Shown: positions 18,241 through 25,450 of the stretch, one piece after another
How positions within the stretch are numbered: the first letter of the stretch is position 1
Layout: every line of letters begins with the position of its first letter
NCBI RefSeq assembly: GCF_000170755.1
Contig: NZ_ABCK01000015.1
Coordinates: forward strand, 62,001 to 126,000
Length of the DNA: 64,000 bases
DNA from: Lentisphaera araneosa HTCC2155
GTDB taxonomy: Bacteria; Verrucomicrobiota; Lentisphaeria; Lentisphaerales; Lentisphaeraceae
Reading direction: 5' to 3'
Program-made: the position numbers and the translations under genes
Notes under the pieces: model-generated
Database searches by the model: none
What the model saw: only the letters and a program-made list of their open reading frames with translations
What the model was told of the DNA's origin: nothing

Positions 18241-19632
18241 TTAGAGATCTAAACCATCAAACATACCACCTAAGCTACCAAAGCTTCCAGAGTTACTCTT
18301 CTTGTGAAGGTCGTTAAGGAGCTTTGATGTATTTTCTGCTGCAGCTGCTTTACCAGGTAAACAGAGAGAAATCTTGCCAGCTTCTACTTTGAGAATTTCA
18401 ATCTTATGTTCAGAACCTTTGGCGTAGTTCTTTTCTAAAGTTTTTGTGGCATCACCGCTCTTTGGTACATCTAATTGACTAACATGAAGTAAACCACTAC
18501 GACCATCTGAGAGTCCCATGAAAACGCCATAAGGCTTGATATTTTCAACTGTACCGGTTAGTTCTTTAGCTTCCACTATTTCAACTGCTTCACCGACTTC
18601 GCCTTTGTGAAGGCTTAAAGAAATGCGGTGTTGATCAAAGTCAACGGAATCAATTTTCACTTTGAGCGTTTCGCCAATTTGTGGTTGAATACCTTTAAAT
18701 TGACTGATATGAAGAAGTCCATCAACGCCCTCAATTAACTCGACAAATGCGCCAAAATCTTGAACCGAACTCACTTTTGCTTCGAACGTTGCACCATTAA
18801 AGAGTTCATCAGAATCCCATGGGTCTTGTAAGCAAGCACGGAGAGAAAGAGTAATTCTACCTTTTTCCCAATCGAGGGCCAAGATCTTGCAACTGACCTG
18901 GTCGCCAACAGAAACAAATTCATTAAGGTCAACATTGCGCTTCCAAGAAACTTCTGATGCAGGAACAAGTCCGTCAACGCCACCTAAGTCGACAAAGAAG
19001 CCAAAGCGTTCTATGCGGCGGATCACACCTTCGATTTCGTCGCCTTCTACGAGTTCTTCTTGGAGTTTCTCTCTTTGTTTTTCCGCGAGGATCTTGAGAT
19101 AATCGCGACGAGATACTACGGCGCCGCGATCGTCAATTTTTGTGATTAAGAAACTAAAAGTTTGACCGAGATACAGTGAGGCATCACCAGGACGTGAATC
19201 CATTTGTGAGTAAGGACAAAAGGCCATATTACCGCTGAGATTTACTGTGTAACCACCTTTGCGCTCTTCGATAACTTTACCTTCTACCGGGATTTTCTCA
19301 GAGTATGCTGCTTCAAAAGTTTCGTTAAGAGCATCGCCAGAGAGCTTCACTGTAAGGCTAATTTCACCACCGCGGTCATTAAGCACCCATGCTTCAATTT
19401 CGTCGCCAACCTTGAGTTCGAGTTCGCCTTTATTATCGAGTACTTCTCCGAGTGGGATTATACCTTCGCAACGAGCACCAAAGTCAACAAAAATAGAACT
19501 TTTATCAATTAGAGTAATTTTTCCTTTAACGGCTTCGCCCGATTTAAATTCAATTTTCATACTTCTAGAATTTTCTTCAAAGAGAGAAGCAAAATCTTCA
19601 TCAACACTAATAAAATCAGGTATATCGTTCAT
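18241..19632 (-). CDS. Five-S1-domain RNA-binding protein (ribosomal protein S1-like)
   Basis: The 463-residue protein is made of five OB-fold S1 repeats at about residues 30-97, 112-180, 195-265, 278-346 and 357-430. Repeats 3 and 4 are the most canonical (GFFVDLGGVDGLVPASEVSW, GAFVELIEGVDGLLHISQF). A Gly/Ser-rich tail ends the protein. E. coli S1 has six repeats and 557 residues, so this is a shorter version; several phyla use four- or five-repeat S1 proteins. It probably helps mRNA binding to the 30S subunit, but the first two repeats are weak and a separate RNA-binding role is possible. It is transcribed alone and divergently from the FHA operon. Confidence 0.85.
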   Translation of the reverse strand: MNDIPDFISVDEDFASLFEENSRSMKIEFKSGEAVKGKITLIDKSSIFVDFGARCEGIIPLGEVLDNKGELELKVGDEIEAWVLNDRGGEISLTVKLSGDALNETFEAAYSEKIPVEGKVIEERKGGYTVNLSGNMAFCPYSQMDSRPGDASLYLGQTFSFLITKIDDRGAVVSRRDYLKILAEKQREKLQEELVEGDEIEGVIRRIERFGFFVDLGGVDGLVPASEVSWKRNVDLNEFVSVGDQVSCKILALDWEKGRITLSLRACLQDPWDSDELFNGATFEAKVSSVQDFGAFVELIEGVDGLLHISQFKGIQPQIGETLKVKIDSVDFDQHRISLSLHKGEVGEAVEIVEAKELTGTVENIKPYGVFMGLSDGRSGLLHVSQLDVPKSGDATKTLEKNYAKGSEHKIEILKVEAGKISLCLPGKAAAAENTSKLLNDLHKKSNSGSFGSLGGMFDGLDL

Positions 19633-19810: not shown

Positions 19811-21475
19811 ATGGCGAACTTAATTCGACTCGACAATGGGCAAACTTATTCACTTAAAAAAGAAAATATTATTGGCCGCTTGTCAGCTGCCGATATCTTT
19901 GTCGACGATGTAAGTGTTTCTCGTCATCACGCACAAATCAACCTCCATGGAACTGGCCAGTATCAACTCGTCGACATGGCAAGCTGCAATGGTGTAGCTA
20001 TTAATGGTTCAAAGCTTGCAAAAGGCTTAGTAAGGACTGGAGACAAAATTACCATCGGTAAAGTTGACCTCATTTTCTCCGATGACTCGTACCCAAGCTC
20101 ACCACCTACCCAAAATACTTCTGCAGGAAATAAAACTTTAGCTATCGGCGGAAAGATTCCCACGCCCTCGAGTTCCTCAACACGTTCAGGTTCCTCCAAT
20201 CGCACGGCGACTTCAGTGGAAGACTTCATTGAACTCACTCCGAGTGCCTCAATCAATTCTGCGATCCACGACGACTTCAGTAGTGAATGGCTTAAAAAAG
20301 TTGTCCTGACAAATCTAGCTGTAAACGCCGCTAAAAATGAAATGGAGGTCTACGAAGCTCTCAATGACGCATTGCAATCCTCTATTCAATGCAGCCAAAT
20401 TTATCTCACCGTCATCAAGGATGATAATGAAGGTAACATTGCCCTAGCAACTGGTGATGATGATAACTTACGTATGAGTTCAGACCTCATGAGAAAGACC
20501 TTGAATGAAGGTTGCTCTTTTATGATCCGCGACGTCTCCAACTCAAAACTTGTCGACTCGAATCAACTCATGCGCCACGGAGTGCGCTCCATCTTAACTG
20601 CACCCTTATTCAACTCACAGAAGAAGCCTATCGGTTTCATCTATATTGATAGCAAGCTCGACCAAGTCATCACAAATACTGAATTTGCTTTTGCACGCCT
20701 TATCTGTATGCACGCGGGTCTTCTACTTTGCAAACTCCTTAACACAACTGTCACTGCAGATTCCGAAGGAAGTAAAATCCTTGCACTTCCAGGTCACTCA
20801 GAATACGTTCAAAAATTGATGAAAAAGATCGAGATCTACTCGAGTCTTGACTCACCCATTCTCGTTGAGGGTCACGAAGGCAATGACTTTGCGGAAGTCG
20901 CAAATATCATTCATGGAAATAGTAGTCGTCAACACATGAGACTCATAAGCCTAAATTGTGAAGACACGAGTGGTCTTCCCATTTACGAACAACTTTTTGG
21001 TGCCGCAAGTAAAATCACTCAAGCCAATCAAGGCACGCTACTGATTGAAAACATCGATAAACTCGATTTGGCTAGCCAGAAAAAGATTTACGAATTTATT
21101 GCCTCTGGAAAAATCAATGAACACGATAGTAAGCCTATCGACACGCGCTTAATTTGCACGACTAAGGTAGCTTTCGAAGAAGCCCTTGCTCAAGGCATTC
21201 TACATCCTATGTTTAGAAGCATCTTCCAAAACAGTATTTTGCAATTGTTACCTGTACTTCAGCACCACGAAGATATTGCCGATATTGTGGAACACTATTT
21301 TATAGAAGCCTGTAAACAGTCGAGTAAGAAAGACCTCCAACTCGAAAACGGGGCTCACCTCGCATTTTATGATTGCCAAGGCAACGAGCTAGAAATTGCC
21401 TTTATTCTCAAATTCGCCGCTATGAAAGCAAAAACAAATATAATCACGAAAGAACAACTGGAGAACTTCATTTGA
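19811..21475 (+). CDS. FHA-GAF protein with degenerate sigma54-activator domain
   Basis: The 554-residue protein has an N-terminal FHA domain (about 1-95; GRLSAADIFVDDVSVSRHHA then NGVAINGSKL), which binds phosphothreonine. A Ser/Thr-rich linker and a GAF sensor follow (about 150-310). The C-terminal region (about 320-554) has the outline of an NtrC-type AAA+ ATPase. The P-loop position reads VEGHEGNDF (352-360) instead of a GxxGxGK motif, Walker B reads LLIENID (410-416), and the GAFTGA loop is absent. No DNA-binding helix-turn-helix is seen. It therefore probably neither hydrolyses ATP nor activates sigma54, and may be a phospho-dependent scaffold. It heads an operon with rsmI, a TPR lipoprotein and dnaG. 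Confidence 0.85.
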   Translation: MANLIRLDNGQTYSLKKENIIGRLSAADIFVDDVSVSRHHAQINLHGTGQYQLVDMASCNGVAINGSKLAKGLVRTGDKITIGKVDLIFSDDSYPSSPPTQNTSAGNKTLAIGGKIPTPSSSSTRSGSSNRTATSVEDFIELTPSASINSAIHDDFSSEWLKKVVLTNLAVNAAKNEMEVYEALNDALQSSIQCSQIYLTVIKDDNEGNIALATGDDDNLRMSSDLMRKTLNEGCSFMIRDVSNSKLVDSNQLMRHGVRSILTAPLFNSQKKPIGFIYIDSKLDQVITNTEFAFARLICMHAGLLLCKLLNTTVTADSEGSKILALPGHSEYVQKLMKKIEIYSSLDSPILVEGHEGNDFAEVANIIHGNSSRQHMRLISLNCEDTSGLPIYEQLFGAASKITQANQGTLLIENIDKLDLASQKKIYEFIASGKINEHDSKPIDTRLICTTKVAFEEALAQGILHPMFRSIFQNSILQLLPVLQHHEDIADIVEHYFIEACKQSSKKDLQLENGAHLAFYDCQGNELEIAFILKFAAMKAKTNIITKEQLENFI

Positions 21476-22212
21476 AAGGAAAACTAATCATGGCTTCTGG
21501 GGCCATCGGAAATAGCGACGACATACCGAAGCGCACCCTAGATGCTGTAAGAGATAGTGACATGCTCGTATTCGAAGAAGATCGCCCTGCTCGTGCCGTT
21601 TTAAAAGCTGCCAAAGTTCACCGTGAATACTGGAAATACTCTGAGCAAGACGAAGTCCACACTCTTCGTGAAGTTGAAAAAGCCCTCAAACGTGGCGAAA
21701 CCGTTTGTTACATGAGTGACCAAGGTTGCCCCACACTAGAAGACCCTGGTTCACCCGTACTCAAATCCGCTTGGTCGGTGAAAGCCCAAATTCAGGTTAT
21801 CCCTGGACCCAGTTCGGTGACGGCAGCCATTTCTGCCTGCCCATTCACCGTCAAGGGTATCGTCGTTGCAGGTTTCCTTTCTCGCGATCAAGAACTTCGA
21901 GAAAAAGAACTTCGCAAACTCTCCGGTTCAGGTCACCCTTTCTTGATCATGGATACCCCCTACAGAATCAAGCATATTCTCGAGAGCTTGAAGACAGTTT
22001 TAGACGTTCAAAAGAAGTTTGTTCTTGCCATCGACATTAGTGGTGAACACGAATGCTTTTTTTATGATAATGCGACCACTATTCTTGCTGAAGCAGAGAA
22101 ACTACCTCCTAAGCTCAACTTCGTGATTATTGTTGAAGGTAAAAAAGAAAAGAAGCAACTCAAACAAGCTGTGCGTGGCAACGGCTACAAACAAAACCGT
22201 AGGAGAAGGTAA
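21472..22212 (+). CDS. RsmI-like tetrapyrrole-methylase-family SAM methyltransferase
   Basis: The 246-residue protein belongs to the tetrapyrrole (corrin/porphyrin) methylase fold and is closest to RsmI, which 2'-O-methylates C1402 of 16S rRNA. Visible family features are GAIGNSDDIPKRTLDAVRDS near the N-terminus, CYMSDQGCPTLEDPGS and VIPGPSSVTAAISACPF. The start is taken as TTG at 21472. It lies 9 bases after GGAG and overlaps the TGA stop of the FHA gene, which suggests translational coupling; ATG at 21490 is the alternative. It is shorter than E. coli RsmI (286 residues), and the core motifs are somewhat altered (SGAIGN for TPIGN), so the exact substrate is not certain. Confidence 0.8.
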   Translation: MKGKLIMASGAIGNSDDIPKRTLDAVRDSDMLVFEEDRPARAVLKAAKVHREYWKYSEQDEVHTLREVEKALKRGETVCYMSDQGCPTLEDPGSPVLKSAWSVKAQIQVIPGPSSVTAAISACPFTVKGIVVAGFLSRDQELREKELRKLSGSGHPFLIMDTPYRIKHILESLKTVLDVQKKFVLAIDISGEHECFFYDNATTILAEAEKLPPKLNFVIIVEGKKEKKQLKQAVRGNGYKQNRRRR

Positions 22213-22219
22213 GGCCCTC

Positions 22220-23029
22220 ATGAATTCACCTTCAAGAAAGTTCTTTCTCGCTTCGAAGCTTTTCGCCCTAAGTCTCCTCAGCACAATTTTCTTTGCTTCG
22301 TGTCAACGCCCCGATGCAACAGAAGCTTTAGCTGAAGTTGAAAAGCTTTTCGAAGAGAACAACTGGGAAAAAGCTGCCTACCAACTCAAAAGCATGCTCG
22401 ACCTCGGCGAGGAACACCCACGCATTTACGCTCTTTATGCCTATGTGCAAAATCGCCGTGGCCTAAACCAGGAAGTGGAGAAGTTCATTCTCAAGGCCTA
22501 CCCAACCGATTCAACTCCCGACCCACAAATCATGGCCATGATTGGCAGAATCTACCTCGAACGAGGCGATTATCCCGAAGCCATCAAAGCTCTTGATTTA
22601 GCTTACAGAAACGATTTAAATAACCCCATCCCCTTGCGTTTACTGATGCTTGCAGAAATCAACAACTGCCGAAAAGCTGATGGTTCCTATGATATTGAGA
22701 AATACATCAAATCTGCCAAGGGACTCAAATACCTCATGGGTAGAAAACAACTAAGAGACGAAGTTTTTTATAATCATGTGGCAATCAAAGAAATCACCCG
22801 AGAAGGTAATAAAAATTATATCATGCCCTTTTTACAAAAAGCAGATACCCTCGCTCCAGGAAATCCTAGTACCACACTCAATGCAGCTATTGCCCTCGAC
22901 ACGATTTATAAGGTCCCTAAACTGGCTCGCATTCGTTATGCCAAATTCCTCAAAATGACTGAGGGAACAAAGGATCCACAGATACCCGCCGTTGAACGTC
23001 GCTTAAGGCAGCTACAGGGCCTGCAGTAA
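22220..23029 (+). CDS. TPR-repeat lipoprotein
   Basis: The 269-residue protein starts at ATG 22220, which follows an AGGAGAAGG ribosome site. Its lipoprotein signal ends in TIFFASC, the cysteine being the likely lipidated residue. The mature part consists of tetratricopeptide-like helical pairs (ALAEVEKLFEENNWEKAAYQ, IGRIYLERGDYPEAIKALDL), as in assembly or scaffold lipoproteins. The partner is unknown. The gene lies 7 bases after the RsmI-like gene and 2 bases before dnaG, so it is co-transcribed with both. A reading from 22130 would bury the signal peptide and was not chosen. Confidence 0.8.
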   Translation: MNSPSRKFFLASKLFALSLLSTIFFASCQRPDATEALAEVEKLFEENNWEKAAYQLKSMLDLGEEHPRIYALYAYVQNRRGLNQEVEKFILKAYPTDSTPDPQIMAMIGRIYLERGDYPEAIKALDLAYRNDLNNPIPLRLLMLAEINNCRKADGSYDIEKYIKSAKGLKYLMGRKQLRDEVFYNHVAIKEITREGNKNYIMPFLQKADTLAPGNPSTTLNAAIALDTIYKVPKLARIRYAKFLKMTEGTKDPQIPAVERRLRQLQGLQ

Positions 23030-23031
23030 GA

Positions 23032-24867
23032 ATGTCTCAGGATTTCGAAAGGGCTAAACAACAAGTTAAAGACCGCAATGATATAGTCGATATTATTGGC
23101 GCTCATGTTAAGCTAAAGAAAAATGGCCCGACTTTCTTAGGCCTATGCCCCTTTCACAACGAAAAAACGCCCTCTTTTAACGTCAACCAAAACGATCAAT
23201 TCTACCATTGCTTTGGCTGTGGCGCGAGTGGTGACGTACTTAAATTCGTACAAGAATATGAGAGCTTGGACTTTCGCGATGCACTAGAAAAACTCGCCTC
23301 GCGGGCCAATGTCATTTTACCAGAATGGGGCAAAGGACAAAGCCCCGAAGAACGTCTCAAGCAAAAAAATGAAAAAGAAGCGCTTTTCGATGTCCTCGAT
23401 AAAGCCACAAACTTTTTCAAGCAGCAACTTTTATTACCTCAGGGTGCAGAAGCCCTAAAATACGCTCAAAATCGCGGACTCAATCAAGAAGTCATCAATA
23501 ATTATCGCCTCGGTTATGCTCCCAATTCTTGGGATGCCGTAATGAAATGGGCCAAGCAACATTCGATTTCTGATGAACTTCTCGCTACTGCGGGCCTCAC
23601 TAAGCAAAATGAACAGGGAAAAACTTACGACCGCTTTCGCAATCGCCTCATGTTCCCCATCCAGGACATCAGTGGACGCGTCATTGCTTTCTCGGCACGA
23701 GTACTCGAAAAGGATAGTAAAGCCGCCAAATACATCAATAGCCCCGAAACTCCCGTTTTTCACAAAGGTAACGTGCTCTACGGGCTTCACATTGCCCATA
23801 AACACCTGAAAGAAAGCGAGCATTTTGTCATTTGCGAAGGTCAGCTCGACGTCATTGCCTGCCACCGTGCGGGAGTCAAAAATGCGATTGCCGCACAAGG
23901 CACAGCTTTTACTGATCAACATGCCTCGATGATTGCGCGTTACGCAAAACACGTTAAGCTCTGTTTTGATGCCGATAATGCAGGAAAAAAAGCTGCCGTC
24001 AAATGTTTAAATATTTTACTTCCCAAGGGCGTCATTCCCGAGATCATCTCACTTGAAGAAGGCGAAGACCCCGACACGGTTTTAAGTGAACAAGGTGCCG
24101 AAGTCCTCAAAGAAAAACTTTCGGGTGGCATGAATTTTGTGGATTTTATCCTCTCTGATTACGGGCCTTCGAGTCCTTCACAAGAAAAAGTCAAAATCAG
24201 TGAATTTCTTCTAGACATTTTAGCTAAGATGCCCAACGTCCTCATGGGTGATTGGCACCTCCGCTTAGCCAGTAAACTTCAGCTCGACGCTCAAGCGATA
24301 AGTGAACAATTGCGCTACCTCGTTTACAACAAGCGCGATCATAAGCAGTATATGAAGCCCCAGGCGGAATTCCAACAAGCTCCCCAAAATGTCGCACCCC
24401 CTCCTCTCAGACTTAACAAAATATCAAAGCGCTCCGTTGCCGAAATTGAGCTCATTGCCTTGGCCTTAAGTCAGGAAGTTTTTGCGAATTTGGTTTTTGA
24501 AAATACCATGGATCTTGAACCTGAGACAAGCGAATCTTCTCTAGCCCTACACTTTATCAATTCTCATATTGAGATGGGCAATTGGAAAGATTGCTCACAG
24601 GATCTCGCCAATTCATACCCCAATGTTTATGAACTTGTTATAAAACAAAATAAAATATCTTCTTATCACTCTAGGAGTACCGAGGGTGATGACTTTGATG
24701 AACTGATGCAATTAATCAATGATTGCCTCAATCAAATCAGTAAAGCATCGATTGAACAGAAGTATGAAGTCATCAAAGAAAAATTATTAAGCGAACAAGA
24801 TCCGCAAATCAAGCAAGACTTACTGAAAGAATACATGGCCTTAAATCAAGATCTTAAAAGCCTTTAA
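23032..24867 (+). CDS. dnaG: DNA primase
   Basis: The 611-residue protein is a standard bacterial primase, making RNA primers at the replication fork. The N-terminal zinc ribbon uses C39, H42, C60 and C63 (LCPFHNEKTPSF, HCFGCGASGD). The RNA polymerase core follows with NRLMFPIQD and a TOPRIM region (FVICEGQLDVIACHRAG, LCFDADNAGKKA). The C-terminal part, from about 430, is the helicase-interaction region and is less conserved. It is the last gene of a four-gene operon and overlaps the 3' end of the convergent REP-associated transposase by 14 bases. The usual rpsU-dnaG-rpoD arrangement is not present. Confidence 0.97.
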   Translation: MSQDFERAKQQVKDRNDIVDIIGAHVKLKKNGPTFLGLCPFHNEKTPSFNVNQNDQFYHCFGCGASGDVLKFVQEYESLDFRDALEKLASRANVILPEWGKGQSPEERLKQKNEKEALFDVLDKATNFFKQQLLLPQGAEALKYAQNRGLNQEVINNYRLGYAPNSWDAVMKWAKQHSISDELLATAGLTKQNEQGKTYDRFRNRLMFPIQDISGRVIAFSARVLEKDSKAAKYINSPETPVFHKGNVLYGLHIAHKHLKESEHFVICEGQLDVIACHRAGVKNAIAAQGTAFTDQHASMIARYAKHVKLCFDADNAGKKAAVKCLNILLPKGVIPEIISLEEGEDPDTVLSEQGAEVLKEKLSGGMNFVDFILSDYGPSSPSQEKVKISEFLLDILAKMPNVLMGDWHLRLASKLQLDAQAISEQLRYLVYNKRDHKQYMKPQAEFQQAPQNVAPPPLRLNKISKRSVAEIELIALALSQEVFANLVFENTMDLEPETSESSLALHFINSHIEMGNWKDCSQDLANSYPNVYELVIKQNKISSYHSRSTEGDDFDELMQLINDCLNQISKASIEQKYEVIKEKLLSEQDPQIKQDLLKEYMALNQDLKSL

Positions 24868-25450
24868 ATCCTTGTTTATTAACTAAAATAGCTGACCAAT
24901 TCCATCCATTAGTTCTCTTACATAAACCTGCTTTTACTGGATTATTCATTATATATTCAACTGCACGGTTTAAATGATTTTGATCACGAATAAACCGATC
25001 CCAATACTCTTCTTGCCAAACCTTGCCCTTTAAATATTTCTTGTCTATAAGTTCCAAGGATTTATCTGCTGGGAGCGCGGGCGTCTCGCCCGCACAATCA
25101 TCTTTTAAAATTTTATATATCTCATGTGAAGTAAAAGATTTCCAAGAATGTACAATGTCTTTTAAACTATAAGCTTCATATGTTTTTATTAAGACATGTA
25201 CATGATTTGGCATCACCATGTATGCCAATAAGTTATAACGTTGACCATCAAAATATCGCCATGCATCAATAACTAGCTGAGCACACTCTGGCTTTTTCAA
25301 AATACATGAATCATAACTTTGATCTAGATAATTTTCTAAACACTTTCTTTTTTCTATATTTCTTTGTGCGGGCGAGACGCCCGCGCTCCCATCACCCAAA
25401 TCCCTCAGCACAGATTTGGGTAAAGCATCTGCCAAACGATAAGTTATCAT
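24854..25450 (-). CDS. REP-associated tyrosine transposase (RAYT) with in-frame REPs
   Basis: The 198-residue protein is a Y1/HUH nuclease of the REP-associated transposase group. It has the metal-binding motif MPNHVHVLIK (HVH at 83-85), a downstream helix with QEEYWDRFIRDQ that should carry the catalytic tyrosine, and the family end motif EYIMNNPVKAGL. Two REP palindromes lie inside the coding sequence in frame and are translated as DGSAGVSPA (about residues 20-28) and DCAGETPALP (118-127). Neither breaks the reading frame or the catalytic motifs. Such enzymes are thought to spread REP elements rather than themselves. Its 3' end overlaps dnaG. Confidence 0.87.
   Translation of the reverse strand: MITYRLADALPKSVLRDLGDGSAGVSPAQRNIEKRKCLENYLDQSYDSCILKKPECAQLVIDAWRYFDGQRYNLLAYMVMPNHVHVLIKTYEAYSLKDIVHSWKSFTSHEIYKILKDDCAGETPALPADKSLELIDKKYLKGKVWQEEYWDRFIRDQNHLNRAVEYIMNNPVKAGLCKRTNGWNWSAILVNKQGFKGF
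25070..25096. repeat. REP palindrome inside the transposase, copy A
   Basis: A 27-base element, TGGGAGCGCGGGC then GTCTCGCCCGCACA, with a GCGGGC/GCCCGC stem. It is the exact reverse complement of 25365-25391. Confidence 0.9.
25365..25391. repeat. REP palindrome inside the transposase, copy B
   Basis: Exact 27-base reverse complement of 25070-25096. The pair encloses 268 bases that include the HVH codons. Confidence 0.9.

Follow-up and report, generated by a model that had tools for sequence, protein, structure and literature searches.

In all six genomes studied of the marine family Lentisphaeraceae, a gene for a protein composed of an FHA domain, a GAF domain and a degenerate sigma54-type AAA+ domain lies next to a gene for a divergent second RsmI-family methyltransferase, called here RsmI2. 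We propose that the two genes constitute a lineage-specific module, in which the pseudo-ATPase would be the phospho- or ligand-responsive regulatory partner of the RNA methyltransferase paralog, a reading to which we give a probability of roughly 0.45. The evidence suggests a signal-controlled RNA-modification switch and not a decaying gene. The features of the window, that is the whole stretch of 64,000 nucleotides that was analysed, are collected in Table 1.

Table 1. Positions of the gene pair, its domains and its neighbours in the window.
Feature	Position	Strand	Remarks
Divergent S1-domain (rpsA-like) gene, upstream	18241..19632	-	Lentisphaera only
FHA-GAF-degenerate sigma54-type AAA+ gene	19811..21475	+	554 aa; ATG start, GGAG a few bases 5' of it
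FHA domain, residues 20-90	19868..20080	+	Pfam, GarA match, ortholog alignment
GAF domain, residues 179-305	20345..20725	+	Pfam
Degenerate AAA+ domain and lid, residues 328-554	20792..21472	+	Pfam, predicted structure, motif alignment
Degenerate P-loop GHEGNDFA, residues 354-361	20870..20893	+	Ortholog and motif alignment
Remnant of the L1 (GAFTGA) region, LFGAASKITQANQG, residues 395-408	20993..21034	+	Ortholog and motif alignment
Degenerate Walker B TLLIENID, residues 409-416	21035..21058	+	Motif alignment
RsmI2, divergent second RsmI-family methyltransferase	21472..22212	+	246 aa; TTG start, GGAG upstream
TPR lipoprotein gene	22220..23029	+	7-nt gap; linked in Lentisphaera only
dnaG primase gene	23032..24867	+	2-nt gap; linked in Lentisphaera only

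Domain anatomy and loss of the AAA+ motifs

Pfam profiles assign the FHA domain at 54.8 bits and Sigma54_activat at 59.6 bits (cut-off 20.2). The GAF match is weak (24.6 bits, cut-off 22.4; GAF_2 reaches 24.8 bits, under its own cut-off), and this domain is less conserved in two of the ortholog genomes. The lid of the AAA+ domain is the C-terminal end of the protein, and Pfam finds no HTH or other DNA-binding domain in the 554 residues. The same absence, with nothing after the lid, holds for all six orthologs by Pfam and alignment, which bears out what the initial annotation had said of this protein.

Six motifs, whose roles in sigma54 activators have been reviewed (PMC7175178), were read in one profile alignment of the sigma54-type AAA+ proteins of the six genomes, of which about fifty are intact (the AAA+ tree has 69 rows). 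Where the family has GESGTGKE as P-loop, TLFLDEIG as Walker B, FREDLYYRL as R-finger motif and WPGNVREL in the sensor-2 region, the window protein has GHEGNDFA, TLLIENID, LHPMFRSIF and CQGNELEI, respectively, the sensor-2 arginine being lost. The L1 loop with GAFTGA is deleted, leaving only 10 residues from LFG to GT. The losses of P-loop, Walker B and GAFTGA announced by the initial annotation are thus confirmed, and they recur in all six orthologs. The P-loop lysine is replaced by F in four of them and by R in two, and the last P-loop glycine is an invariant Asp (D359), with variants such as GHEGNDFA, GCSGSDFN and GPPGTDRR. The Walker B DE has become EN, GN or NR in every ortholog, the GAFTGA loop is deleted or unrecognisable in each, and the R-finger motif is missing from the window protein and the five others; the sensor-2 arginine is kept only in two (G236 and G388). 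Since the same sites are lost in 6/6 orthologs, the motif loss is not due to chance. Among the hallmarks of a functional sigma54 enhancer-binding protein, the AAA+ fold and the Sigma54_activat profile are present, and GAFTGA, the Walker A lysine, the Walker B DE and a C-terminal HTH are absent. Judged by its motifs, the AAA+ domain is predicted to be dead as an ATPase, yet it is maintained.

Such a protein might join oligomers of intact enhancer-binding proteins in the same cell, and poison or license them according to its phosphorylation. Intact sigma54 activators are indeed present in each of the six genomes, and FleT works through a partner activator. Truncated activators devoid of sensor and DNA-binding domains, such as FleT, are known (PMC3162934). 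However, with the L1 loop, R-fingers and P-loop all lost the protein has little interface chemistry to offer, and its constant neighbour is a methyltransferase and no activator, so that we consider this role unlikely.

Over residues 330-554 the AlphaFold model is confident, most block means lying at 75-92, and it resembles NtrC1, FlrC, PspF and VpsR, with TM scores by target of about 0.75-0.8 for isolated AAA+ domains; the domain has kept its outline, as had been supposed. With VpsR among the closest solved structures, one could think of a regulator of sigma70 promoters of the VpsR, TyrR or HupR kind, a known class (PMC3162934, PMC10274813) that has lost GAFTGA and kept its action at promoters. 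These proteins retain their DNA-binding domain, whereas none of the six orthologs has one, which makes this explanation highly unlikely.

The model of the FHA domain is poor (pLDDT about 30, from a shallow alignment), so the assignment of this domain rests on sequence: it aligns with GarA over residues 20-90 (E 5e-12). The phosphothreonine-pocket signature GR, SxxH and NGxxxN is present and invariant in 6/6 orthologs, as are R23, S37, R38, H40, S58, N60, G61 and N65, at overall identities of 26-87%. The domain should still read protein phosphorylation. T109, in a KT[LI] motif common to the ortholog linkers, is a candidate self-docking phosphothreonine and a weak lead: the motif is borderline against shuffles, the score of such 4-5-mers being reached by 11-33 of 400 shuffles, and the best motif of one trio differs.

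Conservation, gene order and selection

Each of the six Lentisphaeraceae genomes holds one full-length ortholog (26-87% identity), and no full-length homolog was found in the 192 other genomes of the class or in a 388-genome sample of the phylum. The remaining sigma54-type AAA+ proteins of the family all lack an FHA domain of this kind, and no intact FHA-GAF-AAA relative was found in the family or the class.

The pair is adjacent in all six genomes, with a 4-nt overlap in Lentisphaera, a 2-nt gap in G086, a 1-nt overlap in G236 and abutting genes in G388. Its outer neighbours vary among the three genera. In Lentisphaera these are the S1-domain gene, the TPR lipoprotein gene and dnaG; other genes flank the pair in 3/6 genomes, namely nadA-like and penicillin-binding protein genes in G086, and M16-type peptidase and DUF1080-like genes in G236 and G388 (outside the window, names were assigned by reading translations). 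Because the pair is constant and its flanks differ, the link to dnaG is a trait of the genus and the link to RsmI2 is an old one. The fixed place ahead of rsmI and dnaG put forward by the initial annotation therefore holds, more strongly than stated, for the RsmI-family gene, and a stable dnaG link was rejected outside Lentisphaera. Even there dnaG does not follow directly: it comes two genes after RsmI2, behind the TPR lipoprotein gene. Promoter and terminator patterns were not commoner than in shuffles. An open reading frame resembling a REP-associated (Y1) transposase lies at 24854-25450 of the minus strand, its end overlapping that of dnaG.

Selection was measured as pN/pS between the three Lentisphaera species. 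Synonymous sites being near saturation, the values are proportions: 0.08-0.10 for FHA, 0.06-0.14 for GAF, 0.16-0.20 for the degenerate AAA+ domain, 0.04-0.23 for the lid and 0.30-0.48 for the linker, compared with 0.14-0.23 for DnaG of the same operon. Every domain of the protein is under purifying selection. Moreover, the motif loss is old and fixed in Lentisphaeraceae, because all six orthologs share it. A gene in decay, retained through its position in an essential operon, would account for the lost catalytic motifs, but not for six full-length orthologs of six, for purifying selection on all domains, or for operon contexts that differ in the other genera; we rejected this reading, which is extremely unlikely. 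The survey of homologs that had been suggested brought up no intact copy in the same genomic place, all six orthologs showing the loss, and together with purifying selection and the preserved FHA pocket it upholds the view that the protein was repurposed.

RsmI2, the downstream methyltransferase

The TTG start of RsmI2 overlaps the stop codon of the preceding gene by 4 nt. We prefer it to an alternative start, the in-frame ATG at 21490 with AAGGA in front, since all orthologs conserve the first strand (G-x-LIMA).

The gene had been taken for rsmI itself, an identification that we rejected. RsmI2 scores 110.4 bits against TIGR00096, under the equivalog cut-off of 167.9, and the canonical RsmI of the same genome is encoded elsewhere (G000:C20:93003-93695, 209.9 bits). 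Two RsmI-family genes are found in 6/6 Lentisphaeraceae; among the other genomes of the class only G129 has two, and both score like canonical RsmI. A profile built from the six RsmI2 sequences gives 369-462 bits for its own members and 131.5 bits for the next best, so that RsmI2 is confined to the six Lentisphaeraceae among the genomes searched. In the tree the RsmI2 sequences form one group (99); it falls with 1WYZ of Bacteroides and is separated from canonical RsmI (96), a placement to be read with caution given the long branches. The RsmI-like 1WYZ shares GCP, GPSS and TPYR with RsmI2; a limited literature search found nothing on it.

RsmI, the 16S rRNA C1402 2'-O-methyltransferase (5HW4, 9PZG), and RsmI2 have in common the TP_methylase fold and the equivalents of two E. 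coli residues, Asp100 (D91, invariant in 6/6) and Arg174. Asp100 is vital for AdoMet binding, and the role of Arg174 has been described in the same work (PMC5053481). They differ, beyond score and clade, in their signatures: the canonical TPIGN, HNE, SDAGTP, REATK and KGE are replaced in all six RsmI2 except for single shared letters, HNE by S/N-E-Q, SDAGTP by S[DS]QGCP, REATK by a DISG-like motif and KGE by KLN. The letters that replace HNE, REATK and KGE are largely invariant, and five of the six proteins have a basic C-terminal tail. RsmI entries are the top matches of the structure model, but its domains are poorly oriented (rmsd about 15), and we use it for fold identity only. Since the Asp100 and Arg174 equivalents are kept and the signatures swapped, RsmI2 probably still uses AdoMet and reads a different substrate or context; its catalysis could be altered as well. 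As the linked gene is a lineage-specific divergent paralog, neither the link to replication hinted at in the initial annotation nor one to ordinary C1402 methylation follows.

A possible regulatory module and its relatives

In the module that we propose, the product of the first gene would be a pseudo-ATPase with a sigma54 activator as its ancestor. A phosphothreonine protein would dock on its FHA domain, the GAF domain may add sensing or dimerisation, and the AAA+ fold, free of nucleotide, may provide a protein-protein interface. RsmI2, translated right behind it, would be an RsmI paralog that has taken on a new function. It would use bound AdoMet to methylate, instead of C1402 or besides it, a different position in an RNA, probably an rRNA or a tRNA. 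Most likely RsmI2 is bound by the pseudo-ATPase, which would act as an on/off switch or deliver the enzyme to its substrate, depending on Ser/Thr-kinase signalling, although adjacency is no proof that the two interact. In the simplest account of such a regulator-enzyme pair, phosphothreonine, perhaps together with a ligand, would be the input and methylation the output. A bolder version, in which a phosphothreonine-gated pseudo-AAA+ subunit would directly control RsmI2 and Ser/Thr-kinase signalling would alter ribosome (or tRNA) methylation, we hold to be doubtful.

The Pkinase family has 105 hits in the 6 Mb window genome, for the most part in open frames some 640-750 aa long, so that phosphothreonine partners may abound. 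In the same genome a protein encoded at L171:2654-4768 (G000:C17) comprises a receiver, a degenerate sigma54-type AAA+ domain without P-loop lysine, GAFTGA and Walker B DE, and a Ser/Thr kinase; its gene lies behind PP2C-like and histidine kinase genes, and with its orthologs (L152, L161) it is present in all three Lentisphaera genomes. The FHA protein could be a scaffold of a Ser/Thr kinase pathway whose dead AAA+ domain pairs with that of this kinase, the RsmI2 link being co-regulation only. The AAA+ tree joins both degenerate groups (SH-aLRT 98), which is a lead, and an FHA domain suits kinase docking. The branches that meet there are long, however, and the join may be false; moreover, the kinase occurs only in Lentisphaera, whereas the FHA protein occurs in all three genera. 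We regard such a scaffold as improbable.

Two further groups of activator-like proteins were observed in the family. A second conserved GAF-AAA+ group, with one member per genome (L005, L067, L074, L127, L129, L149), has intact Walker A and B and a deleted GAFTGA loop (motifs read in 5/6). A third, degenerate group is found in 5/6 genomes (L007, L169, L170, L162, L165); the copy of the window genome is GAF-like in its N-terminal part and ends in an HTH-like tail.

Methylation of rRNA is usually regarded as constitutive. If our reading is true, the FHA phospho-reader, carried on a dead activator scaffold and conserved as the partner of an rRNA-methyltransferase paralog, would offer a tangible example of regulated RNA modification that experiments can address, in a genome where Hanks-type kinases give about a hundred hits. 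The protein also shows that a sigma54-activator AAA+ domain can persist after ATP, sigma54 and DNA binding have all been lost.

The actinobacterial switches GarA and OdhI are small proteins with an FHA domain that act as enzyme inhibitors. The window protein resembles them in its FHA domain with preserved pocket residues, but adds GAF and the degenerate AAA+ domain. With NtrC, NifA, PspF and FleQ/FlrC it shares the AAA+ fold and lid, the Sigma54_activat profile and N-terminal sensory domains; it differs from them in its FHA input and in the absence of GAFTGA, Walker A lysine, Walker B DE, R-finger motif and HTH. Activators without a proper GAFTGA, the loop being altered or deleted, are known (VpsR, TyrR, DhaR, HupR, and NtrC of Caulobacter and Rhodobacter), as are activators without DNA-binding domains (CtcC, FlgR and FleT) (PMC3162934, PMC10274813). 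Unlike the window protein, however, those of the former kind retain DNA-binding domains, and Caulobacter NtrC still uses ATP. Our search, short of the whole literature, found no description of an FHA-type dead activator in Lentisphaera. What looks new here is that one protein has lost its ATP site and sigma54 loop as well as DNA binding, takes its input through FHA and has a methyltransferase as its fixed partner.
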